NCBI GenBank assembly: GCA_017503015.1
Contig: JAFVTX010000055.1
Span: forward strand, 1-64,000
Length of the DNA: 64,000 bases
Direction of reading: 5' to 3'
From: Fibrobacter sp.
GTDB taxonomy: Bacteria > Fibrobacterota > Fibrobacteria > Fibrobacterales > Fibrobacteraceae
The notes beneath the pieces are model-generated. The model saw nothing but the letters and a program-made list of their open reading frames with translations. It was not told where the DNA came from and searched no databases. Made by a program: the position numbers and the translations under genes. Shown here piece by piece: positions 303 through 55,950 of the stretch. The stretch's first letter is position 1. Every line of letters begins with the position of its first letter.

Positions 303-320
303 ACGTGTTACCTCGCTGGA

Positions 321-776: not shown

Positions 777-815
777 TGTTTTTTCCTCATTAAGTAGCGG
801 GAATCATCCCTTGGT

Positions 816-3373: not shown

Positions 3374-3374
3374 A

Positions 3375-4676: not shown

Positions 4677-6426
4677 TAGCGGAAACCTCCTTCACGGAAG
4701 CAAAAATACTTTGTTCAAGGTCCTTGAATTCCTGGGAATCGAACTTGACACGGTTCCAGTCCTTCGTCGACTGAGTGAGCTTGAGGAAGAACGTACGGGC
4801 GACGTCCTTTTCGCTGAACTTCATCGGGGTCTTGAGGATGGTGTAAACCTTGTCGAACACGTACTTCTGGCGTTCGGCGGAGCAGGCGGCGTCGATTTCG
4901 TTATAGGCGTCCTGCTGCAGGTAAACGGAGTCCAGGTATTCGGACTTCAGATAAATCACGAAGTCGTCAATCGAGGTACCTTCTTCACCCACCACCTTCA
5001 TCATGTTGTTCACATCCACGCCGCTTGCGAGGATGTGACGGGCTTCGGCAACCTTCTTGCTGTCGATGATGCCTTCGTACTTGGACCAGGAATCCAGCGG
5101 GTGGATTGCCGGGAAGCGGCGCTGGTCGGAACGTTCACGGCTAAGGCCGAGGAATGCGCCCACCACCTTCAAGGTAGCCTGGGTCACCGGTTCTTCGAAG
5201 TTACCACCTGCAGGCGATACGGAACCGCAAATCGTCACGGAACCGGTAGAGCCGTCCTTGAGGCGAACCACGCCACCGCGTTCATAGAAGGCGGCAATCA
5301 CAGATTCGAGGTAAGCCGGGAAGGCTTCTTCGCCCGGAATTTCTTCCAGACGGCCGCTCATTTCACGCAGAGCCTGTGCCCAACGGGAAGTCGAGTCAGC
5401 CAACAGGAGCACGTTCAGGCCCATCTGGCGGTAGTATTCGGCGAGAGTCACGCCCGTATAGACGGAAGCTTCACGGGCAGCCACCGGCATCGAAGACGTG
5501 TTACAAATAATCAGCGTACGTTCCATGAGGGACTTGCCGGTACGCGGGTCAATCAGTTCAGGGAATTCGCGGAGGGTTTCCACCACTTCACCTGCACGTT
5601 CACCGCAAGCGGCCAAGATCACGATATCCACGTCGGCGTAGCGGCTCATGAGCTGCTGGAGCACCGTCTTGCCGGCACCGAAGGGGCCCGGCGTACAGAA
5701 CGTACCGCCCTGCATCACGGGGAAGAACGTATCGATAATGCGCTGCTGCATGGTGAGGGGCTTGCTCGGGCGCAGGCGTTCTTCGTAGGCCTTGATCGGC
5801 ATCTTCACCGGCCAGGTCTGCACCATGCTCACGTCCTGGGTTTCGCCCTTGTCGTTCTTGAGCTTTGCGACAACAGTTTCTACAGTGAATTCGCCAGCGG
5901 CAGAGACCGATTCCACAGTCCACTTGCCCAGCAGGCGGAACGGCACCATGATGCGGTGCGTGAACACGCCTTCGGGCACGGTGCCCAGCGTATCGCCCGC
6001 GACCACCACATCGCCCACCTTCGCGACCGGGGTAAACGCCCACTTCTTGTCGCGGGGGAGCGCCTTCAAGTACTTACCGCGCTGCAGGAAGAAGCCGCAT
6101 TCTTCGGCAAGCTTCGGGAGCGGGTTCTGCAGACCGTCAAAGACCTGGGTCAAGAGGCCGGGGCCAAGTTCTACGGACAAAAGTTCGCCGGTGAATTCCA
6201 CCTCGTCACCCGTCTTTAAGCCCGTGGTGTCTTCGAACACCTGGAGTTCGGCGTAGTCACCGCGGATACGGATGACTTCGCTCTTGAGGGGGATGACTTC
6301 GGACTTGCCGTCCTTGTTTTTCTGAGTAAGCTTGGCATACGCCACTTCGTTCTGGGACACGGCGCTTTCGAACTTGACGCGAATCAGGTTACCGTTGACG
6401 CCGATGATTTTTCCGATACTAGCCAT
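4669..6426 (-). CDS. atpA: V-type ATP synthase subunit A (catalytic)
   Basis: The catalytic subunit, 585 residues from the chosen ATG at 6426. It has the Walker A motif [11 protein letters not shown], the catalytic-Glu region [12 protein letters not shown], and [32 protein letters not shown] (split here for reading: ADSTSRW, then [15 protein letters not shown]), as well as the inserted non-homologous region before the P-loop typical of A subunits. An in-frame ATG seven codons upstream (6447) was not chosen because GGAGG lies between the two, 10 bases before 6426, and would be inside the longer version. It couples ATP hydrolysis or synthesis to rotor turning. Confidence 0.96.
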
Positions 6427-6443
6427 TGAAAATGGACCTCCGG

Positions 6444-7001
6444 TCATTCCTGTGCCGCCGCAGAGGCGTATGCAGGATCGTTTGCATTAATAACATTCAA
6501 CACGGCAGCGTCGCCCGCTTGTTCGGAGAGGCGCGCCCAACGTTCACAAATCTTCAGTTTGATCGCATAAGCGTAAACATGCTTGACGGTACCCTCGCCC
6601 ACTCCCGCGAGCGAGTCCACAAGCCAGAAACGGGCCTTGTCGATATCCTGCTCTTTTTCCATAGGATTCGACTTGGCAAACGCATCTTGAATCATCTTGG
6701 CAAAAGCGACATCGTAACCCGGGAAGGACTTTTCCGTAAAACGGATATCGGGCCCCCATGCGCTTGCACGGAGCCTGCCCGAAACGTTCTTCATCTGGAT
6801 TTCGTGGGCCTTGTAGGCGCGCACGAACTCGTCGTCGCACTCTTCGCATTCACCGTCATCCAGAAGCGCGTCCAGAGCCGCAAGTTCCGGCTCGGACAGC
6901 ACGCCGATGCAGCGGTGGCGAAAATCTTCCATACTGAGCGGGGCTGGATCGCCGAACTCAATCATCGGAAGAGATGCCATCAAGTAAGAAGGACTGCTCA
7001 T
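6444..7001 (-). CDS. DUF2764-like protein of V-ATPase operon
   Basis: A 185-residue soluble protein between subunits E and A. In the V-ATPase operons of Bacteroidota, Chlamydiae and spirochaetes, a poorly conserved DUF2764 protein sits at exactly this position, where other operons encode subunit C, F or G; that is known of the family. Here the protein begins SSPSYLMASLPMIEFGDP, which resembles DUF2764 N-termini, and is otherwise acidic and helical with no motif I recognise. It seems shorter than many family members. The ATG at 7001 was preferred over a TTG one codon upstream. A structural role linking rotor and K ring, replacing subunit C, is inference from position only. Confidence 0.7.
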   Translation of the reverse strand: MSSPSYLMASLPMIEFGDPAPLSMEDFRHRCIGVLSEPELAALDALLDDGECEECDDEFVRAYKAHEIQMKNVSGRLRASAWGPDIRFTEKSFPGYDVAFAKMIQDAFAKSNPMEKEQDIDKARFWLVDSLAGVGEGTVKHVYAYAIKLKICERWARLSEQAGDAAVLNVINANDPAYASAAAQE

Positions 7002-7013
7002 CAAGTACCCGCG

Positions 7014-7616
7014 TTACTTCGCCTGTGCGGCAGCGTTTACCACTCTGGCAAGTTGCGGACGGAGCAGGGCCGAAAGAGCGTCGGCCATTGCAGCTTCTGT
7101 AAATTCGTGGGTGACCTTGCCGCCATCGAGCTTGATGCGGAAGCCGAACTTGACACCCTTGTCGCTTTCGACCTTGACGCCGGCGGAAAGCTGCTTCTTG
7201 AACTCGCCCATCACGAAGGAGCTGAGCTTACGGGCATCGGCGTCGGAGAAATCCACCTCGATGTCGGAGGTATAGGACTTGGCTACCGTGAGGAGCATGC
7301 TCTTGACGGTGGATTCGTCCAGGGACTTCTCCACCTCGAGGTTCAACAGGTCCATAATCATCTTTTCGAGATTCTTGCCTACCGAAAGCAAAAGGTCGCG
7401 AGCGGACTGTTCAAGAGTGCGTTCGCTACGTTCCGTGAACGCTTCGGCGTCCTTGTCGGCCTTTTCCAGACGGGCGGACGCTTCGGCCTCGGCAGCCTTC
7501 ACGATATCGGCCGCCTTTTCCTTGGCCTTGGCAATGATAGCCGCCGCCTCGTTTTCTGCTTTATCGACAGCATCTTTCTGGATGCGTTCCATAAGGTATT
7601 GCAAGTCTTCTGCCAT
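7014..7616 (-). CDS. atpE: V-type ATP synthase subunit E (peripheral stalk)
   Basis: A 200-residue, strongly helical protein. The first half is a long charged coiled coil (about 5-110, rich in Ala, Glu and Lys, for example AAAIIAKAKEKAADIVKAAE), and the C-terminal half is globular, the plan of subunit E. It would form the peripheral stalk that holds the A3B3 head still. The start at 7616 has TTGGAG 8-13 bases upstream; an in-frame ATG four codons earlier lacks a ribosome binding site and would contain that sequence. It is the first gene of the operon, so the promoter and leader just upstream (7617-7720) control all eight genes. Confidence 0.9.
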   Translation of the reverse strand: MAEDLQYLMERIQKDAVDKAENEAAAIIAKAKEKAADIVKAAEAEASARLEKADKDAEAFTERSERTLEQSARDLLLSVGKNLEKMIMDLLNLEVEKSLDESTVKSMLLTVAKSYTSDIEVDFSDADARKLSSFVMGEFKKQLSAGVKVESDKGVKFGFRIKLDGGKVTHEFTEAAMADALSALLRPQLARVVNAAAQAK

Positions 7617-7643
7617 ATATATCTCCAATTACATATAAACGCT

Positions 7644-7669
7644 AAAAATGCCCCAAAAAAGGCATTTTT
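7644..7669 (-). terminator. Hairpin in the leader of the V-ATPase operon (possible attenuator)
   Basis: AAAAATGCC (7644-7652) pairs with GGCATTTTT (7661-7669) around an 8-base loop. On the minus strand the stem ends in a run of T and lies 27 bases before the start of atpE. It therefore looks like an intrinsic terminator placed between promoter and first gene. It could attenuate the operon or stop transcription coming from the plus strand; the sequence alone cannot separate these. Confidence 0.45.
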
Positions 7670-7685
7670 GGTCTTTGCTGTTAGG

Positions 7686-7716
7686 AATATACAAGTAAAT
7701 TTCGAAAAAAGTCCAA
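7686..7716 (-). promoter_or_regulatory. Candidate promoter of the V-ATPase operon
   Basis: On the minus strand, TATATT (7691-7686) could be the -10 box and TTGGAC (7716-7711) the -35 box, with a long 19-base spacer. It lies just upstream of the leader hairpin and in a zone of A-tracts (7701-7760) that would act like an UP element. The promoter rules of this phylum are poorly known, so this is a weak call. Confidence 0.3.
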
Positions 7717-7967
7717 AAAAATGGCAAAAAAAGCGAAAAAAAATTTTTTCCTGCAAAAAACGGGGAAAAAACAGGACAAAACGGCGATAAATTGCCGTAA
7801 AAGACCGTTTGTAAATCGCTTTTTACATTATTTGACGGGGGACGCCTCCCCCTCGGCCGAGCCGCGCTCGACCTACCCCCTCCCCTAGGGGTTTTACCCC
7901 TAAAACCCCTAAGCGACCGCTCGCTCGACATCTTGGGTGACGAATTCTCCGGTAACTCGCTCGCTCC

Positions 7968-8214
7968 CACCTAAAGGTGGCCATGTACACTAAGGCAACG
8001 AATTGCCATGGCAATTCTAGTCGCCAAGTGTCCAAAGGTCGCAACCGCCCCAGTTTAATAACTGGGGCTTTGTTGCTCACAGAAGCGACCGCTCGCTCAC
8101 ACCTAAAGGTGGCCATGTACACTAAGGCAACGAATTGCCATGGCAATTCTAGTTGCCAAATGTCCAAAGTTCGCAACCACGCCTCGTTAATACGAGGCGT
8201 TTATTACTCACAGA
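7968..8214 (+). repeat. Tandem 132-bp-period repeat with palindromes and covarying hairpin
   Basis: Two units start at 7968 and 8100. Each has, in order: CACCTAAAGGTG (small hairpin), a conserved 20-base piece, the perfect 18-bp palindrome GAATTGCCATGGCAATTC (8000-8017 and 8132-8149), a moderately conserved piece, then a 9-bp stem with loop TAAT, and finally TTTRTTRCTCACAGA or close to it. The stems are GCCCCAGTT/AACTGGGGC (8047-8068) in the first unit and ACGCCTCGT/ACGAGGCGT (8179-8200) in the second: different letters, same length, same loop, perfect pairing. The T-rich tail after each stem on the plus strand is terminator-like. The first 53 bases of the two units are identical. Function unknown. 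Confidence 0.85.
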
Positions 8215-8221
8215 TGGGGGC

Positions 8222-9631
8222 TCACCGGTTTTCGAGAAGTTTCTGCACATATTGTGCATAGGCCTGCAAACTCGGATCTCTCGCACCCATCAGCAGAATC
8301 GTGTCGCCGGGCTGGGCGTATTCCACCATTTTCTTGGCGCATTCGGTGCGGTCGGCGATGTAGATGGCTTCACAGCCCTTGAGCAGGAGGTCATCGGCAA
8401 GGTCACCGGCGCTGATGTCGCGGGTGACGGTGCCGCCGGCGTAATAGATTTCGCTGAAGAACATCACGTCGTTTTCACGGTCGTCGTCAAAGTCCTTGGG
8501 GCGAAGCGTCTTGGCGATAAATTCCACAAGGTCTTTGCGCAAGAATCTCGTGGGGCCAAAGCCGTGAGGCTGGAACCAGGCGATGACGCGGCCCTCGGTA
8601 AAGTCCTGGGCGCTCCTAATGCTGGCGGCAATCTTTGCCGGATTATGCGCGAAGTCATCCACCAGAGTCACGCCGTTGAAAGTCCCTAAAATCTGGTGGC
8701 GACGGAACACGCCGGGGAATGTCGCAAGGGCGTCGGCGCAAGTATGTAGCGTTACCCCTGCGCGGAGGGCGGCAGCCGTTGCGGCCAGGGCATTTTCCAT
8801 ATTGTGCTTGCCCGGGAGCGGCACCACGAACTTCACGAGTTCTGCATTGTGGCGCACGCGGAACTGAATGGACGTGCCGACTGACTTGAAGTCCGTGCCC
8901 TGCACGCCTACGTAATTTTCAAAGCCAAAATCGAATTCGCGACCGGCGCTGAACTTCTTGGCCAGCGGATGCGCATCGTTTACAATCAGAATCTTGCCGT
9001 TATCGAGAATGTTGTGGCTGAACTTAAGGAAGATTTCCTGGAGTTCGCTCAATTCCTTGTGATCCTTGTCCACATTCAGAATCAGGCCGATTTCGGGTTC
9101 GTAGCGCACCAGCGTTCCATCGCTTTCGTCCGCTTCGACCACGAGCCATTCACCCTTACCGGACACGGCGTTACCGATCTTGCCTTCTTTCTGCAAGTTC
9201 ACGAGGCCCGCCCCCGTCATGACCGACGGCTGGAGGCCCGCATATTGCAGAATGTGGTAAATCATGGCGGTCACGGTGGACTTTCCGCTGGTGCCCGAAA
9301 CGGCGATGGTCTTCGCCTCTTTCGAAATCTTCGCGAGCATTTCGCTGCGGTGCATTACCGGGATTCCCAGTTCCTTGGCGCGCTTGAGGTCCGGATTCGA
9401 ATCTTCGATGGCGGTACTCACCACCACTGCAGAGAGGCCCGCGACAACGCCCGAGCCGTCTTGCGGAAAGCACTTGACGCCACATTCTTCGAGCTGAGTC
9501 ATCACAAGCGGCTTTTCTGCCGCACCGAACTGGCGGTCCGAACCGCTAATAGAAACACCCTTGCCAACCAAATACTGGGCGATGGCACTCATGCCCACGC
9601 CCGCAACACCGATAAAAAAGTAAGATTCCAT
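8222..9631 (-). CDS. Mur ligase of the MurC/Mpl family
   Basis: A 469-residue ligase of the family that adds L-Ala (MurC) or recycled tripeptide (Mpl) to UDP-MurNAc in the cytoplasm. The N-terminal Rossmann motif is GVAGVGMSAIAQYL, the central P-loop GTSGKSTVTAM, and the adenine-side motifs are KHNMENALAA, FRRHQILG and DDFAHNPAKIAAS. Two key places differ from textbook MurC: the P-loop has Ser-Gly-Lys-Ser instead of His-Gly-Lys-Thr, and DDFAHNP has Asn where the usual motif has His. DDFAH is closer to Mpl than to MurC. It may be a paralogue with a different amino-acid or nucleotide-sugar substrate. It stands alone, with no mur cluster beside it. No clear ribosome binding site is seen before the ATG. 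Confidence 0.8.
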   Translation of the reverse strand: MESYFFIGVAGVGMSAIAQYLVGKGVSISGSDRQFGAAEKPLVMTQLEECGVKCFPQDGSGVVAGLSAVVVSTAIEDSNPDLKRAKELGIPVMHRSEMLAKISKEAKTIAVSGTSGKSTVTAMIYHILQYAGLQPSVMTGAGLVNLQKEGKIGNAVSGKGEWLVVEADESDGTLVRYEPEIGLILNVDKDHKELSELQEIFLKFSHNILDNGKILIVNDAHPLAKKFSAGREFDFGFENYVGVQGTDFKSVGTSIQFRVRHNAELVKFVVPLPGKHNMENALAATAAALRAGVTLHTCADALATFPGVFRRHQILGTFNGVTLVDDFAHNPAKIAASIRSAQDFTEGRVIAWFQPHGFGPTRFLRKDLVEFIAKTLRPKDFDDDRENDVMFFSEIYYAGGTVTRDISAGDLADDLLLKGCEAIYIADRTECAKKMVEYAQPGDTILLMGARDPSLQAYAQYVQKLLENR

Positions 9632-40368: not shown

Positions 40369-43275
40369 TCACACGCCAGAAGACGCGTTTTCAACAAATT
40401 CGCGGGCCTGTGACTTCCACAGGGCCATAAACGACTTGATGCTTGCCCGATTGTACCTGTCGCTATCGTAGTCGAACATGAGAGCAAAACGATCTCTTGC
40501 GTCCAAAATTTCCAGGTCAAAGATGCTCTGATTTTTGGCTTTGGGGCGCTTGATTTCAAGCCTACGCTTAATGAGGGAACTTCCGCCACTCGCATTGCGG
40601 ATGTTCCCCTGATAAAGGACGCACAGGCTGTCATGGGGTCGGTTTTGATTCTTGTAAAGAGTGTATTGGCAAGTCGGATTGGCAATGTTCTGCTGCACCT
40701 GGCGGTGGACCTCCCGCAGAAAATCAAGATCCCCCAACGAAGCATCGGCACCCACCGGAAGCGAAGAATAAAGGGCTCCCACCGCCCTGGATTCCCGCAC
40801 ATCGTCCCTGTCCCTGTAAATCCAGTTTATCAGGACATTGCGGGCCTGATTGTAGCGGGCCATGGCCTTCAAGGTGACCGCGATAAAGAATGCGCTTAGG
40901 CCAATCTTGACCTGGGCACAGAAGGATTCTAACCTGGTGCGTTCAAGCTCCAATTCCGAAATCATTATATCTTCGGACAAATCCGAAGACTCGGAATCTG
41001 TCTTGGGGCAACAATCCCACGTTCCCGTGCCGAACAAGGCATCAAAGCGCTCCAGGGCGGCACGGAATTCCGGAGAATTGGGCAAATCTAGGCGCTTTAA
41101 CAGAATTTCCTCGTAGCCATCGTCTTCTGGCTTACCGCCGTCATAAAGCCTTTCCACATCCCGTAAAAAAGCGTGGATGGAGGTTCCGTCAAAAACGATG
41201 TGATGGAAATCGGTAAAGAGGAACGCCCCCTTTTCGGTCTTGAAAATCCTTATGCGGAAAAGCCTGTCCTTAAGCAGGTCAAAGGAGCAAACCAGGGCTT
41301 CTTTCAACTTGACAAATTCTGCTTCAGAAATTTGCTCTACCGGGATGGCCACGTCTCCGATTTTCACATCACCAATCCGCTGAAAAATCTCCCCATTCGC
41401 CGTCTTTTCAAAGCGGGTAAGCAAAGCCCTGTGGCTAAGCACCGCCTGTGAAAGGGCCGAACCAAGCCGTTCCAAGTCCACGGATTCTTTCAGGGCGAAC
41501 AACGCGTAGATGTTATACATGGTGGAATCCACCGCACGCTGCTGGAAATTCCATATATACTGCTGGGTGGGAAGCAGCGGGTAAATTCCTGCCGCCGGCG
41601 AAGTGACGGGCTTTTCCGCAGAAACCGACAACTTCCGCTTCTGCCAAAGTGCCGCTATTTTCCGGGGGGTTCGTCCCGAATACACGTCGGACATTTCCAG
41701 CCCAGCCATGTTTGAGGCGACAATGGCCTCCATAGTCGTGATGGAAGATCCTCCCAAGGCAAAAAAGTCGTCGTCGGCTCCCACGTAGGCTACATCCAAT
41801 ACCGTCTTGAACGCAGCACACAAGCGTTTTTCGCCATCTGTTTCAGGGGCACTGTAGGGAGCGTGAGACGCCTCTTCGGCAGGGCACTGCAGGGCGAGCT
41901 TGTCCAGCTTTCCGTTGCTGTTTCTGGGGACACTGTCCAAGTGCACAAAATGGTTGGGCAGCATGTAATGGGGCAAAAATCTGGAAAGTTCCGCAAAGAC
42001 AGATTCATAGTCGATATCCACATCGTCGGTATAGTAGGCGCAAATGGTCGCCTTGCCCGAAGCATCCTTGAAAATCTTGACGCACGCCCAAGAAAGTCCC
42101 AGCACCCTCCTGAGTGCCGATTCAATCTCGCCGGGTTCTACACGGTTCCCGTCAATCTTTACCATGTCATTCTTGCGGCCTACAATCACCATGTTCCCGT
42201 CAGGGAGCTCCCGTACCATATCGCCGGTGTAAATCCAGCCTTCCCTGAAGGTTTCTGCTGATTCGGCCGGCATGTTCACATAGCAGCGGACATAAGGGTT
42301 TTTCACCCGCAACTCTCCCTCACAAACATCCACCTCCATGCCGCCATAGGGCTTGCCGATGGGCGTGTTTTCGTAGGAGCGGTCTATCTTGAAGGCCGTG
42401 GGCATGGAACCAGTTTCGCTCATGCCGTACATGGCGTAAAGTTCCACATTTTCCAGATAAAGGTCGCGGATAATTTCTGCCGCCACGATTATCCGGCAGA
42501 CACTGGGCGGAAACTCCTTGAAAAGCTTTATGTAGGTGGGCGTAACAAAAAGGGTGGTTATCCCCTGCTCCGCCATATAGTTCTGCATTACAACCGGGTT
42601 CTTGGAAACGGCATAAGGAACCACCGCAACCGAGGCTCCGGAGCTCACCGCCCAGGCAAAAAGGAAAAAGGCCGGCAGATAATTCAAGGACGCAATGACT
42701 GCCACCCTGTGCCCAGGTTCCACCATTTTTTCGCCGGATGCGTTCCGCACGTTGGTAGGCACCATCAGCTCTACGGAGCCGTATTCATGGAGAATCCCCT
42801 TGGGATGCCCCGTAGAGCCCGAAGTATAGACGAAAAAAGCACCGTCGTGCAAATTTCTGGGGCGGCACCTGCCCAAAGTCCCAGAAGTAGCGGAACCCGA
42901 GGCCCTCTCACCGAAAATCCTTTCAAGAAGGGCATCGTCAAGGACAAGCCTGGGCTTCAAATCTTCACGGATGAACTTTTCCCGCTCAACAGGCTCCCCC
43001 GTCTCGATTCCTGCAAAGACGGCCCCCGCTTTCCAGACCCCGAGAAGGCAGGCGTAATGGAATGCGCTCCTGGAAATTTTTACAAGAACCACCTCTTCGG
43101 CACCCACGTTTTCCCTTTCGAGGTAATCAAGTACCCGCCCCGAAAGGGCGTCTAGTTCGGCGTAGGTAAGGGACTTTTCCGCGTCCGACACGGCAACGGC
43201 ATCGGGCATTCGCTCCACATTCTCGAAAAAAGCTTTAAAAAAGTCCATCATGGGGTGTTTTATGAATTTTTGCAC
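40369..43275 (-). CDS. NRPS-like protein, adenylation - carrier - condensation (A-T-C)
   Basis: A 968-residue single-module synthetase. The adenylation domain (about 10-480) has FFVYTSGSTGHPKGI, YAMYGMSETGS, YTGDMVRELPDGNMVIVGRK and NSNGKLDK. A carrier domain follows with DFFALGGSS, phosphopantetheine on Ser511. The condensation domain (about 550-960) has the intact motif HHIVFDG (His691, His692, Asp696). There is no thioesterase or reductase. The start is taken as GTG 43275, which has GGAGG 9 bases upstream; the ATGs at 43251 and 43248 lack one, and the longer open frame overlaps the divergent gene. A-T-C order with the condensation domain last implies that the loaded acyl group is passed to a free or downstream amine. 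It is divergent from a MATE-HATPase gene 61 bp away, the likely exporter of its product. Substrate not predictable by eye. Confidence 0.85.
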   Translation of the reverse strand: MQKFIKHPMMDFFKAFFENVERMPDAVAVSDAEKSLTYAELDALSGRVLDYLERENVGAEEVVLVKISRSAFHYACLLGVWKAGAVFAGIETGEPVEREKFIREDLKPRLVLDDALLERIFGERASGSATSGTLGRCRPRNLHDGAFFVYTSGSTGHPKGILHEYGSVELMVPTNVRNASGEKMVEPGHRVAVIASLNYLPAFFLFAWAVSSGASVAVVPYAVSKNPVVMQNYMAEQGITTLFVTPTYIKLFKEFPPSVCRIIVAAEIIRDLYLENVELYAMYGMSETGSMPTAFKIDRSYENTPIGKPYGGMEVDVCEGELRVKNPYVRCYVNMPAESAETFREGWIYTGDMVRELPDGNMVIVGRKNDMVKIDGNRVEPGEIESALRRVLGLSWACVKIFKDASGKATICAYYTDDVDIDYESVFAELSRFLPHYMLPNHFVHLDSVPRNSNGKLDKLALQCPAEEASHAPYSAPETDGEKRLCAAFKTVLDVAYVGADDDFFALGGSSITTMEAIVASNMAGLEMSDVYSGRTPRKIAALWQKRKLSVSAEKPVTSPAAGIYPLLPTQQYIWNFQQRAVDSTMYNIYALFALKESVDLERLGSALSQAVLSHRALLTRFEKTANGEIFQRIGDVKIGDVAIPVEQISEAEFVKLKEALVCSFDLLKDRLFRIRIFKTEKGAFLFTDFHHIVFDGTSIHAFLRDVERLYDGGKPEDDGYEEILLKRLDLPNSPEFRAALERFDALFGTGTWDCCPKTDSESSDLSEDIMISELELERTRLESFCAQVKIGLSAFFIAVTLKAMARYNQARNVLINWIYRDRDDVRESRAVGALYSSLPVGADASLGDLDFLREVHRQVQQNIANPTCQYTLYKNQNRPHDSLCVLYQGNIRNASGGSSLIKRRLEIKRPKAKNQSIFDLEILDARDRFALMFDYDSDRYNRASIKSFMALWKSQAREFVENASSGV

Positions 43276-43336
43276 CAGGGAACACCTCCGAAAATAATAA
43301 TTTGATGTTATCGAGAGTAACGATTCTGCGACATTT

Positions 43337-45046
43337 ATGAGCCGTAACAAGATTTTTTGCGAAGAAAGATTCAAGACCCTGCTGGGAGCCTCCACCGTAG
43401 GCATGATCATTCCCATCGTGGTCATTCTTTCCAATGCGGCCATTGTCGGAAACGTACTTGACGAAAGGGCCCTGTCTGCCTGGAATGTCTTTACCCCCCT
43501 GCTCAATTTCTTTATCGGGATTGCCGATATCGTAAGTATCGGCACCTGCTATGTCTACACCTACAAGATAGGCGAAACGGACAAGTCGGGAGCGGACAAG
43601 GTCTTTGGGCAGAGCCTCCTGGTTTCTGTAGTGCTTTCGGCCATTACCTACTTCGCTTCCGGCGCCTGTTTCGAAATTTACCTGAACTACCTTAACCTAA
43701 GTCCAGAAATCACCCAGTACGCACAAGACTGTTTCTGCTACTACCGGTACGTGCTGATGCTCTACCCCGTCTATTTTTTGCTTTCGGACATGGTGCTCAT
43801 GGACGGGGACGCGGCCTGCAGTTACCTTTCAAATGTGCTTCTGCTCGTCGGGGGCATTACCGTTTCCGTCGCGGCATGCACGAACATGGGAATCTCCGGC
43901 ATCGGCGTCGGGGCACTGGTCGGCACCCTAGGGGCCATACTTGCCCTGTGCCTTCATTTCTTTCGCAAGTCCAACTCCCTCAGGCCCAGATTCCATTTCA
44001 GCTTCAAGCTCCTCGCCGTCACCCTGAAATACAGCATTGTCGATGCAAGCCTCTACCTGCTTGTGGGGCTACAGACCTTTATCCTGAACAAGTACGTTAT
44101 TTTCAACTATGGCGAATTCAACCTGCCGGTACTGACGCTCGTGACAAGCGTTATCCAGTTGACCATCATCTTTGACGGAATCGGCCAGGCCATGACGCCC
44201 CTTGCCAACGTTTACCATGGTGAAAAGAATCCCGAGGGCGTGCGGAAGGTCATGAAAATTTCCATAAAGGCCGCACTGGCAGAAGGGCTGATCTTCACCC
44301 TGATTCTAGCCATTTTCGCCCCAATGATTCCCAGCGCCTTCAATATCGAATCTCCCCTATTGCAGGAACTTTCCACCAAGGCCCTCTGGATGGTCTGCCC
44401 TACCCTGTGTTGCACTGCCCTGCTTTTCCTTTTCACCTCCTATTTCTTGGTGCGACAGTCCATCGGCCACAGCCTTACCATCTGCGCTCTCAAGGATTTG
44501 CTGATGCCTGTCCTATGCGTGTTTGCCTTCGGGGCTATGCTTGGCTTTTCGGGCGTGTGGGTGGGGCTTTCCCTGGCACCGTTTCTTACCCTCATCATTG
44601 GCACACTGCTGTCCCTGTTACGTTTCAAGGGAAAGAAATTCCCCTTGTTCCTGGATGAATCCGAAAAGCACCATTATTCCTTTGACTTCGTGGTCACCAC
44701 TGAGAATACCATGAGCATCCAACAGAAAGTCCGGGAAATCCTGACCCAGGAAGGCGTTTCAAGCAAGAACATCACCAAGGCCCTGCTGATCATAGAAGAG
44801 ATTTACATGTTCCTGATAGACTACAATGCACCCAAGGTTCTCTTGTCCGAACTCACCATTGTTGTAGGCAAGCACGTGCAGATGATTTTCAGGGACAACG
44901 GAAAGATTTTCGACATCACGAGCGAAATAAGCGCCACCTCTTCTTTCCGGGGGTTTGTCCTGAAAAACATCATGATAAACCAGGAAGACAAGAAAAACAT
45001 AACCACCACGAGCTACAACCGGAATTTTATTATATTACCCCTGTAA
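43337..45046 (+). CDS. MATE-family transporter fused to RsbW-like HATPase domain
   Basis: A 569-residue fusion. Residues 1-445 are a 12-helix MATE exporter (STVGMIIPIVVILSNAAIVG, NFFIGIADIVSIGTCY). Residues about 455-569 are a soluble domain like anti-sigma kinases of the RsbW/SpoIIAB kind: an N-box-like ALLIIEEIYMFLIDYN, a G1-like FRDNGKIFD and a C-terminal strand NRNFIILPL. In the N-box the usual Asn is replaced within EEIYMFLIDYN, so ATP binding should be checked. The gene is followed 22 bp later by a SpoIIE-type phosphatase, and divergent from the NRPS-like gene. The kinase-like domain could sense or gate the transporter through a phosphorylated partner; no STAS anti-anti-sigma gene is nearby. 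Confidence 0.82.
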   Translation: MSRNKIFCEERFKTLLGASTVGMIIPIVVILSNAAIVGNVLDERALSAWNVFTPLLNFFIGIADIVSIGTCYVYTYKIGETDKSGADKVFGQSLLVSVVLSAITYFASGACFEIYLNYLNLSPEITQYAQDCFCYYRYVLMLYPVYFLLSDMVLMDGDAACSYLSNVLLLVGGITVSVAACTNMGISGIGVGALVGTLGAILALCLHFFRKSNSLRPRFHFSFKLLAVTLKYSIVDASLYLLVGLQTFILNKYVIFNYGEFNLPVLTLVTSVIQLTIIFDGIGQAMTPLANVYHGEKNPEGVRKVMKISIKAALAEGLIFTLILAIFAPMIPSAFNIESPLLQELSTKALWMVCPTLCCTALLFLFTSYFLVRQSIGHSLTICALKDLLMPVLCVFAFGAMLGFSGVWVGLSLAPFLTLIIGTLLSLLRFKGKKFPLFLDESEKHHYSFDFVVTTENTMSIQQKVREILTQEGVSSKNITKALLIIEEIYMFLIDYNAPKVLLSELTIVVGKHVQMIFRDNGKIFDITSEISATSSFRGFVLKNIMINQEDKKNITTTSYNRNFIILPL

Positions 45047-45068: not shown

Positions 45069-46520
45069 ATGGCCCACAAAAAAATAAAATTCAGTGAATC
45101 CACCCAGGCGTTGTTCGAAGAAAACGAATGGAAGGCCAACAACCTCATTGCAGGTTCTTTCGGCATCTTGGCGTTTATCTACCTCGTCATCGCCATCTGC
45201 TCCATTACCGGCGTCTTCGATGTTCCCGCCACGTGGGGGATTTTCTTCTTTGGGCTACAGACCGCCTTGTTTATCGCCATGATGTTTGCCATCAGGCGCC
45301 TGAACCAAAAGAAGTTTACCAAGTACGTGGGCCTCGTGGCTCTACTTTTGGCCATCAGCCTCTACACGGTCATCTACTCCTACGGCGTGGAGCTCCTGTT
45401 TGCCATTCCCATCGTGCTGAGCTGCCGCTACTACCTGAAAAAAGTGACCCTGAACGTATCGATAGTGACAACTATCGCCTATATCGTTTCTAAGTTCCTG
45501 TCTTCTATTTACGGGCTTCCGGACATCAACATGGTCTCCTTTGTTCCAGGAACCATCATTACCATCACCAGCACCATGGACGCGGCCATTGCCGACGCCA
45601 TCAGCCAGCTGCAAGGGGAAGCCCTGCACCAATTCCTGGTGGACTACAACATCAACAACTTCTTCTACTGTATCGACAGTAACCTGGTGTTCCTCTTGGC
45701 CATCATCTATGTCTGCTACAACACCACAAAGCGGATGCAGACCATGGTGCTTATCCAGGCGGACATTTCCAGCAAGAAGGCCGCCGTGGAATCGGAACTG
45801 AAGATGGGGAACTCTATCCAGATAAGCATGCTCCCCCACAATTTCCCCTCATCGGAATCCGTAGAAATCTTTGCTACCATGGACCCTGCTAAAGAGGTGG
45901 GCGGTGACTTTTACGACTTCTTCTTTATCGACAAGACCCATGTGGGTATCGTCGTGGCCGACGTTTCGGGCAAAGGCGTCCCTGCGGCCCTCTTCATGGT
46001 GATTACCAAGACCCTCATCAAGGACCAGGCCAAGCTGGGGCTGTCTCCCGAAAAGGTGTTCACCAAGGTGAACCACTCCCTGAGCAAGAGCGACGACGAG
46101 GGAATGTTCGTGACGGCATGGTTCGGTGTTTTGGACATGGAAACGGGTGTCTTGAATTATTCAAATGCAGGACACAACCCTCCCCTGATTTGTATCGGAG
46201 GCAAGGATTTCCAGTTCTTGCGTTCTCCCAAACGCAAGTTGCCCCTGGCTGCCATGGATAAAGTCGAATACTACCAGGAAAGTATCACCCTCTCGGCAGG
46301 CGACAGCATTTTCCTCTATACCGATGGCGTTACCGAGGCCTGTCACCAGAAGGATTTCTACGGCGAGACACGCCTGACGGAATACCTGAACAAGAACCGC
46401 GACACCGATTTGGAAGGTGTTCTGCACGGGCTCAAGGCGGAGCTGGACGCTTTTGCCGATGGCGAACCGCAATACGACGACATCACTATGCTGATGATGA
46501 AATATAAGGGAAGGGGCTAG
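45069..46520 (+). CDS. Membrane-bound SpoIIE/RsbU-type PP2C phosphatase
   Basis: A 483-residue protein. Six membrane helices occupy about 20-215, followed by a short coiled linker and a PP2C domain (about 245-480). The metal and core motifs are present: AKEVGGDFYDFFFID, VGIVVADVSGKGVPAALFM, FVTAWFGVLDMETGVLNYSNAGHNPPL (two blocks), IFLYTDGVTEA and QYDDITMLMM. Such phosphatases remove phosphate from STAS-domain antagonists that are phosphorylated by RsbW-like kinases. The kinase-like partner here is probably the C-terminal domain of the MATE fusion directly upstream. The N-terminal membrane part has no sensor domain I recognise. Confidence 0.9.
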   Translation: MAHKKIKFSESTQALFEENEWKANNLIAGSFGILAFIYLVIAICSITGVFDVPATWGIFFFGLQTALFIAMMFAIRRLNQKKFTKYVGLVALLLAISLYTVIYSYGVELLFAIPIVLSCRYYLKKVTLNVSIVTTIAYIVSKFLSSIYGLPDINMVSFVPGTIITITSTMDAAIADAISQLQGEALHQFLVDYNINNFFYCIDSNLVFLLAIIYVCYNTTKRMQTMVLIQADISSKKAAVESELKMGNSIQISMLPHNFPSSESVEIFATMDPAKEVGGDFYDFFFIDKTHVGIVVADVSGKGVPAALFMVITKTLIKDQAKLGLSPEKVFTKVNHSLSKSDDEGMFVTAWFGVLDMETGVLNYSNAGHNPPLICIGGKDFQFLRSPKRKLPLAAMDKVEYYQESITLSAGDSIFLYTDGVTEACHQKDFYGETRLTEYLNKNRDTDLEGVLHGLKAELDAFADGEPQYDDITMLMMKYKGRG

Positions 46521-46704: not shown

Positions 46705-48366
46705 ATGTCAAACAAGAGAGAAAACTGGGGTTCCAAGCTGGGAGTAATCCTCGCCGTGGCAGGTTCTGCCGTCGGACTCGGCAACTTTTTACGCTTTCCC
46801 GTGCAGGCGGCCACCAACGGCGGCGGAGCTTTCATCATCCCCTACCTTATCGCCTTCTTGCTTTTGGGCATTCCTCTTTCATGGATGGAATGGACCCTTG
46901 GCCGTGCGGCAGGACTCCACCATCACGGTACCGCACCGGGTGGATTCCACTACATTCTCGGTAAAAAGCCCTGGGCAAAGCACCTGGGTTCCTTGGGACT
47001 TTTACCCCCGCTGTTCATCAGCTTCTACTATGTCTTTATCCAGTCCTGGATTCTGGCCTTCACCTACTATTCCGCCACTGGAAAGCTCATGGAAGTTGTG
47101 GCTGGCGGCTACGAACCCATGAAGGAATTCTTCGGCAACTACATCATGCTGAACACCAAGGTAGGCCCCATTCCTGCCGCCATACTGTTCTTCTTGATTA
47201 CCTTCGCCTGCAACATGGGGCTTTTGTCCTTCGGCGTACGCAAAGGTATCGAGCGGGTAAACAAGGTGACCATGCCCATCCTCCTCATCATGGGCATTAT
47301 CCTGGTGGTACGCGTACTTACCGTAAGCGATATCGGCAAGGGCCTTGCCTTCGTGTGGAACCCGAACTTCTCTGAAATGCTCAACCCCGCCGTGTGGCTT
47401 GCGGCGTCGGGCCAGGTGTTCTTCACCATGAGCCTTGGCATGGGTATCGTGTTCTGCTACGCCAGTTACCTGAAACCCAAGGAAGACCTAGTGCTTTCGT
47501 CCCTGACCGCCGGCGCTACCAACGGATTTGCCGAAATTATTTTGGGCGGCACCATCGTGATTCCCATGGCGGTGCTCATCGCCGGCAACAACATCGAGGA
47601 ATGCGCCAAGCTGGGCACCTTCGGTCTCGGTTTCCAGACCATGCCCTTCGTGTTCGGGCAGCTTCCCTTTGGCGGATTTTTCCAGACCCTCTGGTTTGCC
47701 ATGCTCTTTATCGCAGGCGTCACCAGCGCCATTTCCATCATTCAGCCCCTGATCAGCTTCTGCGAAGACGACCTGAAGTTCCACCGCAAAAAGGCCATCG
47801 CCGCCACAGGAACCGTGACCTTCCTGGGTAGCCTGGTGGGCATCTTCGGCCTTGCCGCCGGTGCCGTCGATGAACTGGACTTCTGGGGCGGTAGTTTCTT
47901 GCTGGTGGTGCTCGGCACCATCCAAGCGTTCATTTTTGCCTTTGTGCTGGGTCGCCGCAAGTCCGAGACCATCGGCGAAGACGGCAAACCCGAAAACGAA
48001 GCCTTTGCCCTGATGAACGACGGCGCGGCCCTAAAGCTCCCCCGCTTTTTCCGCCCTATCATCATGTACGTGTGCCCGATTTACCTTGCCATCGTGCTTG
48101 TAGCATGGATGATCCACGACGGCATGGGCGTGTTGCTGCTGAGCAATGTGGCCGCCGATGCACGAGTCACCTTCCTTGGCCAGGAATTCTCCCAGATTGG
48201 CTTTACCTGGGGCGTGCGCGGATTCCTGCTTGCGCTGGTAATCCTTTTGAATATTGCCATCTACTTTGCCTGGAGGCAGGGTGGTACTGCAAGACTCACC
48301 ACCATCTTGCATAAACAGACCAAGTCTGTGGGCCGAGCCGGTGAACACGACGAAGAGGAGGCATAA
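46705..48366 (+). CDS. Sodium-dependent amino-acid transporter (NSS/SNF family)
   Basis: A 553-residue LeuT-fold transporter of about 12 helices. The N-terminus RENWGSKLGVILAVAGSAVGLGNFLRFP is the family signature, with the NxxRF-like sodium and substrate site in helix 1; FITFACNMGLLSFGVRKGIERVNK-type text and SFFLTMSLGMG-like helix 6 regions support the call. Likely substrate is a neutral amino acid. The last codons (GAGGAGGCATAA) provide a strong ribosome binding site for a 33-residue membrane protein, and RidA follows, giving a small amino-acid uptake and handling operon. Confidence 0.93.
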   Translation: MSNKRENWGSKLGVILAVAGSAVGLGNFLRFPVQAATNGGGAFIIPYLIAFLLLGIPLSWMEWTLGRAAGLHHHGTAPGGFHYILGKKPWAKHLGSLGLLPPLFISFYYVFIQSWILAFTYYSATGKLMEVVAGGYEPMKEFFGNYIMLNTKVGPIPAAILFFLITFACNMGLLSFGVRKGIERVNKVTMPILLIMGIILVVRVLTVSDIGKGLAFVWNPNFSEMLNPAVWLAASGQVFFTMSLGMGIVFCYASYLKPKEDLVLSSLTAGATNGFAEIILGGTIVIPMAVLIAGNNIEECAKLGTFGLGFQTMPFVFGQLPFGGFFQTLWFAMLFIAGVTSAISIIQPLISFCEDDLKFHRKKAIAATGTVTFLGSLVGIFGLAAGAVDELDFWGGSFLLVVLGTIQAFIFAFVLGRRKSETIGEDGKPENEAFALMNDGAALKLPRFFRPIIMYVCPIYLAIVLVAWMIHDGMGVLLLSNVAADARVTFLGQEFSQIGFTWGVRGFLLALVILLNIAIYFAWRQGGTARLTTILHKQTKSVGRAGEHDEEEA

Positions 48367-51213: not shown

Positions 51214-52920
51214 CTAGATTCCGGGGCGTAGCCCGGAATGACGCAGGAGTCGGTTCCGGCGACGAGACGGGTCCAGGCGTTTCTGCATGGCCGTGAGCAC
51301 CCGTGTCAAGAACCAGGCAATGGCAAAATAGATGATTGCCGTCGTGACCAGCGGGAAAAACGCCTCATAAGTGCGGCTACGGATAATGTCGGAAGCCTTG
51401 GTCAAATCCTGAATGGCGATGTAACCCACAATCGAAGTCATCTTCACCAGCGAAATGAACTCGCCCTGGAACACCGGCAAAAAGTGTCTGGCCGCCTGGG
51501 GCAACACGATCTTGAAGAAAGCACGGGGTTTCGTGTAACCCAGGGCAAGGGCCGCTTCCATCTGCCCCTTGTCCACCGCCTCGATTCCCGTGCGCATCAT
51601 CTCGGAAACATAGGCCCCGAAGTTCATGCCAAAACCAATGACAGCTACCCAGACTCCATCGATTCCCGTACGAGCAAACACCACATAGAACAGAATCATC
51701 AGGAGCACCACCGAAGGGGTCCCCTGCAAAATGCGGATGTAGATAATGGCGATGGCATCTACAATTCTAATCTTAGAAAGGCGCATCAGGCAAATCAGGA
51801 ATCCAAGAACCGTACCGAGCAATGCCGACAGTATGGAAATGTACACAGTCACCCAGATGCCATTTGTCACCAGTTTCCAGCGGGATTCCATGACGAAAGT
51901 CCGCACAAAACTGGACTTCAACGACGTAATCAGGCCTTCTTCGACAATGGCGGCAGAGTCGCTTGCCGCACCGTTTTTCGCAGGCGACAACACATTCTTT
52001 TCATCCAGAATCTGCACTGCCATCACGCATTCCGACACATAGAACGAATTGGACAGGAAATTCTTTTCCTTGAACGCCGGGGTTGTACTCAACGTTGCCA
52101 CCGCAAAATCATACATTCCCGTTTCGACACCGAGAATAACCGATTCAAACGCGACATCGTGAACTTCAAGACCATACCCCATCTCTGCAAAAATCCGGGC
52201 CATCAAGTCCATCTCGTAACCGACAACTTTACCGTCCTTAATGTATTCAAACGGCGGATTGATGGCACTCGTCGCCATCTTGAAAGTCGGCTTTCCCTCT
52301 TTTGCCTTCGGGAAATCCACGACCTTTCTCGTTTCGTCGTGTCCCAGCCACAGGTTGTCAATCGAATCCAGAAGGCCCGATGCACGGTACTTTTCGATAT
52401 AGGTGTTCAACTCGTCACGAAGACTGCGTCCCTTCTCCTTTTTGGGGAATACCGCCACGATATCCATGGGTTCGAAACCCGCATGGATATAGCCAAGATT
52501 CGGGTTTTCCAAAGCCGCATAACGAATCACCGGTTCGTCGTTGATAAAGCCGTCCAACTTACCGTTCGCCACAAGGTAGGCCATGTCCGGCGTAGATTTG
52601 TAATAGTCTATTTTCGCCTTTGGGAGAAGGCGCCGCGTTTCCTTGTCAACGAAAACGAAACCCGTCTGCATACCGAGTTTCAGATTCTCGTTTTTGTTCA
52701 TCTCGGCTATGGAACTGTACTTGAGCTTCTTGTCCCTGAACTGGGGCGGCACGTCCTTCAAGTCAACTGCCGACGTAGTGTCCATGACTTTTTCACCTTC
52801 GTCACGGACCGAGACGGTACTGGGGGAATCGTTCAATAGGTCCGTGGAACGAATCGGCTTTTCGGGTTCGTTACAGCCCAAAAGGATCAGGCAGGCAAGG
52901 AATAAAAATCTCAGAAGCAT
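51214..52920 (-). CDS. Amino-acid ABC transporter: substrate-binding lobes fused to permease
   Basis: A 568-residue lipoprotein fusion (lipobox LLGC). Residues about 60-205 look like the second lobe and tail of a family 3 solute-binding protein (LKLGMQTGF, STPDMAYLVANGKLDGFINDE, SGLLDSIDNLWLG). Residues about 210-325 look like its first lobe (ATSAINPPFEYIKDGKVVGYE, FDFAVATLSTTPAFKEK-type text). The order is thus the reverse of normal. The permease (about 350-550) has the EAA-loop MEAALALGYTKPRAFFKIVLPQA. The last nine residues, HSGLRPGI plus stop, come from a repeat at 51217. It pairs with the ATPase gene 12 bp upstream. Polar amino acid (Gln/Glu class) uptake is likely. Confidence 0.82.
   Translation of the reverse strand: MLLRFLFLACLILLGCNEPEKPIRSTDLLNDSPSTVSVRDEGEKVMDTTSAVDLKDVPPQFRDKKLKYSSIAEMNKNENLKLGMQTGFVFVDKETRRLLPKAKIDYYKSTPDMAYLVANGKLDGFINDEPVIRYAALENPNLGYIHAGFEPMDIVAVFPKKEKGRSLRDELNTYIEKYRASGLLDSIDNLWLGHDETRKVVDFPKAKEGKPTFKMATSAINPPFEYIKDGKVVGYEMDLMARIFAEMGYGLEVHDVAFESVILGVETGMYDFAVATLSTTPAFKEKNFLSNSFYVSECVMAVQILDEKNVLSPAKNGAASDSAAIVEEGLITSLKSSFVRTFVMESRWKLVTNGIWVTVYISILSALLGTVLGFLICLMRLSKIRIVDAIAIIYIRILQGTPSVVLLMILFYVVFARTGIDGVWVAVIGFGMNFGAYVSEMMRTGIEAVDKGQMEAALALGYTKPRAFFKIVLPQAARHFLPVFQGEFISLVKMTSIVGYIAIQDLTKASDIIRSRTYEAFFPLVTTAIIYFAIAWFLTRVLTAMQKRLDPSRRRNRLLRHSGLRPGI
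51217..51244 (-). repeat. TGTCAT-related repeat forming the end of the ABC permease gene
   Basis: Minus strand CGTCATTCCGGGCTACGCCC, ending GGAATC. It is palindromic (ATTCCGGGC/GCCCCGGAAT) and supplies the last codons; the stop TAG follows in CTAG. Confidence 0.65.
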
Positions 52921-52932
52921 CTTTGTCCTCCC

Positions 52933-54015
52933 CTACCTGATACGCAGTTCCACGGTGTTCTTGCCACCGGAATAATTGTGAACAATGGTGTTTGTAGCCA
53001 GTTCCAAAAATTTGCGGGAGACTCCATCCATGCCGTCTTGCGGATTTAAGGCCTCGCCTCCATATTCAACCTTCATCACCAGGCCGTCACTTTCGCCGGA
53101 ATATTCCATGACCATGTGGATTTCTTCTGTTACAGAAAGCCTATTCAAAATGGACTGGGCCACCATTTCTTCAAAGGCGAAGAGCATGTTTCTTGACATT
53201 CTCTTGGAAACCTGGTTCTTCTCTGCGAAAGCATAAAGTCTGTTCACCATCCCCATATAATCAAAGGTCGAAGGCAAGATTACCTCTTCGAAAACCTTAA
53301 GACGTCTTATGAACTGACGAGTCCTGTCCTTTTGCGGATTGTCAAATATCTGCTCGGGAGTCCCTTCCTCGTAGATGACACCCTGGTCCATATAAAAGAC
53401 GCGGGTAGAAATATCCCGGGCAAATTTCATTTCGTGAGTAACGATGAGCATCGTCAGTCCTTGCTTTGCAAGGTTACGGATAACCGCAAGGACCTCCCCC
53501 ACCATGGTGGGGTCCAAGGCACTGGTGGGCTCGTCGAACAGTACAATTTCAGGGTCCATGGCCAAGGTACGGGCAATAGCCGCACGCTGTTTCTGCCCAC
53601 CGGAAAGTTCTTCGGGCAAATTCAGGGCCTTGTCCGCAAGGCCTACCGTATGGAGGAGCGCCATGGCCTTCTCATAGGCTTCTTTCTTTGAACGGTGGAG
53701 TAGGTCCACCTGGGCCACCATGATATTTTCGAGAACGGTCAAATGGTTGAAAAGGTTAAAGCTCTGGAAAACCATGCCCATCTTGCGACGGAGCGACGGA
53801 ACATCTGCCGAAGGTGCCGTAATGGACTTGCCGTCAATCAGAATTTCCCCCGCAGTCGGATCTTCCAAGCGGTTGATACAGCGAAGGAACGTGGACTTGC
53901 CTGTACCCGAAGGGCCGATAATAGAAATAATGTCGCCCTTTTCAATTTCGGCATTCACGTCCAGCAGCGGCGTGGCATTAGGGAATACTTTTTTCAGGTG
54001 ACGGATTGAAATCAT
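52933..54015 (-). CDS. Amino-acid ABC transporter ATPase fused to RsbW-like HATPase domain
   Basis: A 360-residue protein, about 115 longer than normal GlnQ-type ATPases. Residues 1-240 are a complete ABC ATPase: Walker [12 protein letters not shown], signature [16 protein letters not shown], Walker B with DEPTSALDP, and [10 protein letters not shown]. The extension (about 245-360) resembles the anti-sigma kinase fold: an N-box-like [15 protein letters not shown], a G1-like [10 protein letters not shown], and a final strand KNTVELRIR. It shares this architecture with the MATE fusion at 43337. Start ATG follows GAGGG. It is upstream of, and coupled with, the binding-protein/permease gene. Confidence 0.85.
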
Positions 54016-54108: not shown

Positions 54109-55950
54109 TTAATCCAGCGAATGGACCAACAGACCGTCGCGGAGCTTGGGTTCAAACCAGGTGCTCTTCGGCGGCATGATTTCGCCAGCGTCGGCGATGT
54201 TCATGAGCTGATCGAGAGTCGTCGGATACATCGCGAAGGCGCAGGCGCATTCACCGCTGTCAACGCGCTTCACGAGTTCGCCGAGACCGCGGATGCCACC
54301 GACGAAGTCGATGCGCTTTGACGTACGCGGGTCGTCGATGTCGAAGAGCGGCTTCAAGATAAGCTTCTGGAGGAGAGCCACGTCGAGGCTGTCGACCGGA
54401 CCGAGGTTCTTGAGGTATTCAGCCTTGAACGTGCAAGCGTACCACTTGCCACCCATATAGAAGTTCACCTGGTTCTGCTTTTCGGGGCTCTGCATCTTGT
54501 CGAGTTCGGCAATGTCGAACACCTTCTTCATTTCGTCCATGAGCTGTTCCGGAGTACGGCCGTTCAGGTCCTTGAGCACACGGTTGTAGTCGAGGATCTT
54601 GAGCTGGGTGCTCGGGAAGAGGATGGCGAGGAAACGGTTGTATTCTTCGTCACCGGTGTTGTTCGGGTTCTGTTCGGCGCGGTAGCTGGCGGCGCGAGCA
54701 CCGGCAGCACTGCGGTGATGACCGTCGGCAATGTAACTCACCGGAACGGCTTCGAAAGACTTGCGGATAGCTTCGATTTCGGCGTCATCGTCGATAATCC
54801 AAACCGTATGGCCGAATCCGTCGCCCTTGCTTACGAAGTCATACACGGGCTTACGCTTGGTAACGGCACCGAACACGTCGAACTGGCCCTGGTCGCGGTA
54901 AGTCAAAAACACCGGACCAGTGTTGGCGTTGGTGGCCAGCACATGACGGAGGCGGTCTTCTTCCTTATCGGCACGAGTGAGTTCGTGCTTCTTGATAATG
55001 CCGTTGAAGTAGTCGGCAGCGGGAACGCAGCAGACGAGGCCGTACTGTTCGCGACCGTTCATGGTCTGGCGGTAAACATAGAGGCAAGGCTTCTTGTCGT
55101 AAGCGATCACACCGTCGGCAATCATCTTGTCCAGGTTTTCGCGAGCATGGGCATAGACCTTCGGGTCGTAGGCGTCCACAGAATCGGGCAGTTCCAGTTC
55201 CGCGCGGGTCACGCGCAAATAGGAATGCGGGAGTCCTTCGGCCATGGCCTTCGCTTCGGCGCGGTTCATCACGTCGTACGGGAGGGCGGAAATCGTTTCG
55301 GCTTCGGCCGGGTTTACCGGGCGCAGCGCCTTGAACGGATAGATGTGCATCATAGGGTGTTTTCCTTTGTGAGCTTCTTTAATTAAAGCCTCGTCTTCGG
55401 CAATCAAGTTCTGGATATAGCTGGTCTTGCCCGCCATCCATTTTTTCTTGCGATAATTTACAATAAAATAGGCCAGTACAAAAAATATTGCCCCGCCGAT
55501 GGCGGCTACGATGGTAATACCCACCATAAAAGCGGCTAGATGGCCCGCCGCATCGTGCCAAAGGTGAGTTATGACAGAAATAAAATTCTTAAAGGACAGC
55601 CCCTCAAATTCCGAAAGGAAATCGAAATTGATTTTTTCAGGCTTCAACAGCTTGCAACCGATGGCGTAGCCCGCCGGGTAAAAGAATCCGAACTGGGTGA
55701 GCGGGTTTGCCACGAAGGAAGCCACGATTCCGGGGACCTTCGGGAGCCTGAACACGGCGCAAAACGCCACCGTAAGGATAATCGCTATGCCGATAGTGGG
55801 CCAAATCCCAATAAACACACCCGCTGCTACTGACCAGGCTACCTTCAGGGCATCCTGCCTTTTCGGGAACATGCGGTTGTAATAGATGCGGCTGAGCCTC
55901 TTGTACTTGGACTCGTTCTTGTCTATGGGTTTGTGCCTAAAATGAATCAT
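54109..55950 (-). CDS. DUF2062 membrane domain joined in frame to DUF1015 protein
   Basis: A 613-codon frame with two parts. Residues 1-175 are a DUF2062-like membrane domain (VAWSVAAGVFIGIWPTIGIA, FVANPLTQFGFFYPAGYAIG; further helix about 140-165). Residues 200-613 are a complete DUF1015 protein (MHIYPFKALRPV, ADGHHRSAAGARAA, DYNRVLKDLNG), a family often linked to serine/sugar metabolism but uncharacterised. The junction has ATGATG at 55353-55348 with AAGGA 10 bases upstream, so the DUF1015 protein (414 residues, its normal size) is probably made from its own start, while a readthrough fusion is also possible since no stop lies between. Confidence 0.78.
   Translation of the reverse strand: MIHFRHKPIDKNESKYKRLSRIYYNRMFPKRQDALKVAWSVAAGVFIGIWPTIGIAIILTVAFCAVFRLPKVPGIVASFVANPLTQFGFFYPAGYAIGCKLLKPEKINFDFLSEFEGLSFKNFISVITHLWHDAAGHLAAFMVGITIVAAIGGAIFFVLAYFIVNYRKKKWMAGKTSYIQNLIAEDEALIKEAHKGKHPMMHIYPFKALRPVNPAEAETISALPYDVMNRAEAKAMAEGLPHSYLRVTRAELELPDSVDAYDPKVYAHARENLDKMIADGVIAYDKKPCLYVYRQTMNGREQYGLVCCVPAADYFNGIIKKHELTRADKEEDRLRHVLATNANTGPVFLTYRDQGQFDVFGAVTKRKPVYDFVSKGDGFGHTVWIIDDDAEIEAIRKSFEAVPVSYIADGHHRSAAGARAASYRAEQNPNNTGDEEYNRFLAILFPSTQLKILDYNRVLKDLNGRTPEQLMDEMKKVFDIAELDKMQSPEKQNQVNFYMGGKWYACTFKAEYLKNLGPVDSLDVALLQKLILKPLFDIDDPRTSKRIDFVGGIRGLGELVKRVDSGECACAFAMYPTTLDQLMNIADAGEIMPPKSTWFEPKLRDGLLVHSLD

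Follow-up and report, generated by a model that had tools for sequence, protein, structure and literature searches.

The locus raises the question of what a complete GlnQ-type amino-acid ABC ATPase carries at its C-terminus, and whether this extension ties transport to partner switching, a circuit known from textbooks as a means of sigma-factor control. The window, i.e. the whole analysed stretch of 64,000 nucleotides from a Fibrobacter sp., belongs to a genome of 2.96 Mb (74 contigs, 99.9% complete), the nearest relatives of which, among a named collection, were rumen Fibrobacter MAGs.

The ABC importer and its permuted substrate-binding domain

The importer is encoded by two genes, for which the following features were annotated:

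52933-54015, minus strand: GlnQ-type ATPase with C-terminal extension, 360 aa
53302-54015, minus strand: GlnQ-type ABC ATPase domain, residues 1-238 (Pfam ABC_tran 7.8e-38, NCBIfam GlnQ 1.2e-84)
52936-53301, minus strand: C-terminal RsbW-like domain, residues about 239-360, predicted pseudokinase with its ATP motifs lost (AF2, Foldseek, hhalign)
51214-52920, minus strand: partner subunit, 568 aa, with apparent lipoprotein signal, permuted amino-acid substrate-binding domain (SBD) and permease (Pfam SBP_bac_3, BPD_transp_1)
51994-52734, minus strand: circularly permuted SBD, second lobe followed by first lobe (native versus rotated PDB alignments)

The ATPase domain was complete, with Walker A and Walker B motifs, signature and H-loop (THEM) all found, and shares its operon with the cognate permease and SBD, the gene of the partner subunit following that of the ATPase after 12 nt. 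Upstream of the ATPase gene, DUF2062 and DUF1015 were found fused in one 613-aa protein (54109-55950, minus strand).

In native order, the SBD of the partner subunit matched solved substrate-binding proteins as two swapped halves, and after rotation in silico it aligned end to end with a better E value (5tuj, from 6.5e-16 to 8.1e-19). By these alignments, the SBD is judged to be circularly permuted. Its best native-order match was the tandem SBD1-SBD2 of GlnP (6h30), and the location of this match across the junction of the two domains suggests that the permutation may have arisen through tandem-SBD duplication and loss of the ends. The permutation pattern was general in the importer family, with one to five permuted SBDs ahead of the permease in relatives; four or five in tandem precede one permease at loci L047 (631-5280) and L045 (2096-5995). 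Permease, ATPase and pseudo-RsbW domain were located on a single open frame in 30/80 loci, and entire importers encoded in one frame (about 900-1170 aa; either a single SBD or two) were seen at L043 (4153-7077), L044 (4246-7077), L046 (3589-7077) and L190 (7153-9885).

Fold and ATP site of the ATPase extension

Searched as a single sequence against Pfam, NCBIfam and the PDB, and as a profile against the PDB, the extension returned chance matches only, among them DUF3581, FabI, alpha-catenin and PriS, and the ABC protein of the window gave no HATPase_c_2 match in a single-sequence Pfam search. Recognition of an RsbW fold needed a family alignment, a structure and profiles of true RsbW proteins. 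An AlphaFold2 model was computed from a 38-member family alignment (pLDDT 94.4; order beta-alpha-alpha-beta-beta-alpha-beta-beta) and compared with the PDB using Foldseek. Ranks 1-16 were all RsbW, SpoIIAB or UsfX proteins (best E 3.5e-6, TM about 0.73), with the RsbU-RsbW protein Rv1364c at rank 16, and each of the 15 matches with E <= 0.001 was UsfX, SpoIIAB or RsbW. Comparison of the extension profile with true RsbW by hhalign gave 97.6%. HATPase_c_2, the sole Pfam family with several matching members among the 38 extensions, was found in 8/38 as a separate domain (best E 0.0011). A kinase-only profile, built from 26 true RsbW sequences of the same neighbourhoods as the ABC genes, matched 96/100 ABC extensions at E<1 and 41 at <1e-3 (best 2.5e-9). 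On the model, the extension is assigned the RsbW/SpoIIAB fold. The preliminary description had read the protein as an ABC ATPase with an RsbW-like C-terminal domain; the motifs that it cited do lie towards the C-terminus, and its reading of the fold was supported by the predicted structure, the profile-profile comparison and the Pfam signal in relatives. The other folds that it had considered, NIL and ACT, had no Pfam match in the ABC protein of the window or in its 38-member family; by Foldseek, NIL was absent and ACT appeared first at rank 43 with a non-significant E of 0.25.

The ATP site was compared column by column with that of the true kinases. The N-box Glu was kept in 100% and the G1 Gly in 95% of ABC extensions, and the N-box Asn (Mg/ATP) was present in 6% and the G1 Asp in 0%, versus 100% of true kinases for both. 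ATP lid and G2 were deleted, the columns of the lid Arg and of the first G2 glycine being gaps in 100% of ABC extensions; the true RsbW proteins of the same clusters retain N-box Glu/Asn, G1 Asp/Gly and G2 glycines at 96-100%. Judged by these motifs, the RsbW-like domain of the ABC family is a pseudokinase whose ATP site was lost. Of the anti-sigma kinase fold proposed earlier, the RsbW fold thus stood and the kinase did not, since a domain devoid of ATP-binding motifs is not a kinase. The contrary reading, that an active serine kinase (a true RsbW) was fused to the transporter, could draw on the invariant N-box Glu and on MATE copies, e.g. at L162, which still have most ATP-site motifs; for the ABC domain, it was rejected on the loss of N-box Asn, G1 Asp, lid and G2, and is considered highly improbable.

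The decayed ATP motifs might equally be taken for those of a vestigial remnant without function. However, the extension was open and conserved in 103/103 homologues examined, with invariant residues, and its dN/dS was about 0.04-0.54 and <1 in every close-relative comparison. These values indicate that the extension is under purifying selection and is not an artefact; a vestigial domain was rejected on selection and conservation and is given next to no credence. Somewhat less improbable, though still very doubtful, is a small-molecule sensor, in which an amino acid or nucleotide would occupy the remodelled former ATP pocket and cause trans-inhibition: the invariant N-box Glu and a conserved GGxxFDP segment line the old pocket, but ATP lid, G2 and Mg-binding Asn are gone, and the STAS clustering described below would be left unexplained.

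Transporters with RsbW-like domains and partner-switch genes

On the other strand of the window, the following features were annotated:

43337-45046, plus strand: MATE transporter, 569 aa, with RsbW-like C-terminal domain (Pfam MatE 1.8e-16)
44648-45043, plus strand: RsbW-like C-terminal domain of the MATE transporter (AF2, Foldseek, hhalign)
45069-46520, plus strand: SpoIIE-type PP2C phosphatase with hydrophobic N-terminal region (Pfam SpoIIE 1.2e-46, residues 289-479)

The MATE gene is located about 8 kb from the ABC gene, with the SpoIIE-type phosphatase gene directly 3' of it (the pair at 6.4-9.6 kb from the ABC gene). It adjoins a large NRPS-like ORF (40369-43545, minus strand; adenylation, carrier and condensation-like parts by reading), and the SpoIIE gene is followed by a gene for an SNF (sodium:neurotransmitter-type) symporter (46705-48366, plus strand). 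The AF2 model of the MATE C-terminal domain (pLDDT 86) was matched by RsbW, SpoIIAB or UsfX at Foldseek ranks 1-16 (best E 8.4e-7), and hhalign against true RsbW gave 97.1%; the appendage that the preliminary description had ascribed to both ABC ATPase and MATE was hereby confirmed by structure. Fibrobacter homologues of the MATE extension were all located on open frames of 573-597 aa, and some Clostridia MATE fusions exceeded the Pfam cut-off for HATPase_c_2.

A search for the domain on other transporters in relatives yielded a third family, SDF (Na+:dicarboxylate) symporters with an N-terminal RsbW-like domain, in Clostridia and one Spirochaete (Pfam SDF 1e-55 to 1e-87). RsbW-SDF genes were present in 24/80 loci, often directly adjoining the ABC gene. 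The kinase-only profile matched 19/19 MATE and 27/27 SDF domains at E<1. RsbW-like domains sit on three unrelated transporters, at the C-terminus of an ABC ATPase, the C-terminus of MATE and the N-terminus of SDF. In the genome of the window, the other PF13581 matches were ordinary histidine kinases (C52, C73:68211) or chance, so that no transporter fusion was found there beyond ABC and MATE.

In a tree of the domains, ABC extensions (100/100), SDF domains (27/27) and kinases (25/26) formed separate clades, and the MATE domains formed one clade with a single intruder; separate clades per transporter are what a single origin of each fusion, followed by its spread with the transporter, would produce. 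The ABC extension is a single-copy feature of the genome of the window and was found in 22/101 related genomes; homologues of the whole architecture were common in Clostridia and also occurred in Spirochaetes and Synergistales, and an even draw from the class of Sporofaciens musculi gave the extension in 10/291 genomes.

For the analysis of gene neighbourhoods, 80 ABC-extension loci were fetched without regard to their neighbours. At least one kind of partner gene was present in 45/80 (STAS 29, SDF-RsbW 24, PP2C 17, RsbW kinase 16, MATE-RsbW 10), and three or more kinds were found together in 14/80. A control set comprised 69 GlnQ-like ATPases from 17 genomes. Of the 22 genes with the extension, 9 had a STAS gene no farther than 7.5 kb away and 11 had one within 10 kb; of the 47 that lack it, none did at either distance (Fisher P 9e-6 for 7.5 kb, kinship ignored). 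Counted by genome, STAS lay near the extension gene in 9/17, versus 0.39 expected under uniform placement with kinship ignored. In a separate even draw of Clostridia, STAS, PP2C-kinase or RsbW was found near 5/13 loci. At L190, genes for STAS, a 5TMR-SpoIIE-RsbW kinase, RsbW-SDF and an SBD-permease-ATPase-pseudoRsbW importer follow each other on the same strand, their ends overlapping or only a short way apart. STAS, RsbW kinase and PP2C phosphatase were all present at L190, L035/L173, L050, L094 and L183, and the phospho-serine motif (SSAGLR-type) was retained in 43/43 STAS proteins.

STAS was also found fused to an APH (aminoglycoside/choline-kinase-like) domain adjoining the transporter cluster at L033 (1709-2926), L046 (2068-3228), L082 (987-2198) and L183 (1493-2719). 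L183, from a Synergistales MAG, holds one gene run (1-8932) of PP2C, RsbW, STAS-APH, five separate SBD genes, permease and ATPase, and the RsbW-like domain on this ATPase is less degenerate. A C-terminal STAS domain is carried at L082 (11218-12594, minus strand) by a protein that reads as methyltransferase-like.

No STAS or RsbW gene was found beside the importer in the window, nor within 6 kb in a single one of the seven named Fibrobacter loci. The partner-switching pieces are present in the genome of the window but apart from each other: two true RsbW genes, each adjoining a STAS gene, were found on other contigs, and were the next-best matches after the extension itself when the ABC-extension alignment was searched against this genome (weak E of 0.17 and 1.2). 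A transporter resembling an SNF symporter (L107, 2184-3296, minus strand) is encoded beside one of the two pairs. Since the Fibrobacter importer loci have no partner gene nearby, STAS docking there is proposed by analogy with other phyla. A general device coupling transport to partner switching had been suggested from the window; the third transporter family and the clustering with STAS, RsbW and SpoIIE speak for it, whereas the importer of the window itself has no STAS nearby, and the gene neighbourhoods from which we infer the coupling belong mostly to other phyla.

The absence of an ATP site from the RsbW copy of the importer suggests that a phosphorylation switch which controls genes elsewhere may here act directly on transport. 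The pseudo-RsbW of the ABC family is most likely a docking and regulatory module, and the transporters would be partner-switch effectors whose pseudo-RsbW docks a STAS protein (probability roughly 0.55). In the proposed circuit, a membrane SpoIIE sensor phosphatase would dephosphorylate an RsbV-like STAS protein, which in its unphosphorylated form would quit the true RsbW kinase and bind the transporters at their pseudo-RsbW domain, with an effect on transport; once rephosphorylated by RsbW, it would be released. In such a circuit, the transporter would stand where the sigma factor does in Bacillus. In the organism of the window, the SpoIIE encoded beside MATE would be a likely component, as would both RsbW-STAS pairs on the other contigs. 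The wider version, in which one STAS protein set by SpoIIE and RsbW docks to the pseudo-RsbW of ABC importer, symporter and MATE in gut bacteria, for non-transcriptional co-control, is given even odds. The surface that SpoIIAB presents to SpoIIAA includes the ATP lid, which speaks against docking: with the lid deleted, the docking mode of the pseudo-RsbW would have to differ from that of SpoIIAB-SpoIIAA.

Two further explanations bear on the same neighbourhoods. The extension might serve the ATPase itself, as a built-in domain for dimerisation or allostery similar to the MalK regulatory or MetN C2/NIL domain: the RsbW fold, dimeric by nature, would hold both ATPases together and tune the cycle without a STAS partner. 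RsbW and SpoIIAB are dimers, ABC ATPases act as dimers, and the Fibrobacter loci without nearby STAS, like the roughly half of all loci that show no partner gene, fit this explanation, but it accounts neither for the occurrence of this fold on MATE and SDF nor for the clustering with STAS, RsbW and SpoIIE; it is regarded as possible, at perhaps one chance in a few. A membrane-tethered anti-sigma factor, by which a transporter would signal to transcription through transport-dependent sigma sequestration, agrees with the sigma-bound RsbW relatives 8jzt and 1l0o among the top structural matches. Against it, a scan of ten ORFs at L190 found no sigma factor, and as anchors for a sigma factor, three different transporters in each cluster would be a strange choice; it is deemed very unlikely.

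If STAS docking to the transporters holds, it would provide a post-translational switch by which amino-acid import, symport and export are coordinated in gut bacteria, and would assign a function to a domain for which Pfam gives no confident match on ABC and SDF proteins.

Comparison with known systems

No description of transporter-RsbW fusions was found in the literature searched, which covered few subscription papers; parts and circuit logic are already known, and their use on transporters appears to be new. With the RsbW/SpoIIAB/UsfX kinases (HATPase_c_2; 8ih8, 8jzt, 1tid, 6m37), the domains described here share the predicted fold, the strand and helix order, the N-box Glu and a neighbourhood with STAS and SpoIIE. 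They differ in being fused to transporters, in the loss of N-box Asn, G1 Asp, lid and G2 from the ABC copies, and in that no sigma factor was seen among the ten ORFs of L190. MetN, with its C-terminal NIL/ACT-like C2 domain, and MalK likewise bear a regulatory-looking C-terminal domain on an importer ATPase, whereas the fold found here matches anti-sigma kinases, with ACT only at Foldseek rank 43 (E 0.25). GlnPQ-type importers have in common with the present family the GlnQ-type ATPase and the single or tandem SBDs fused to the permease, but not the permuted SBD, the extra pseudo-RsbW or the one-frame importers of 30/80 loci. Circular permutation was described for Tp0684 (MglB-2), a sugar-binding protein of treponemes and Gram-positives (PMC4990184); unlike this type I/cluster B sugar-binding lipoprotein, the SBD of the partner subunit is a permuted amino-acid-binding domain fused to a permease. 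Partner switching with a STAS hub exists outside sigma control in SypA/SypE (PMC10120452; reviewed in PMC8256260) and SiaB-SiaC (PDB 6kko). These systems share with the proposed circuit the STAS hub, the RsbW-like kinase and the PP2C phosphatase, and differ from it in the output, which here would be a transporter with its own pseudo-RsbW.
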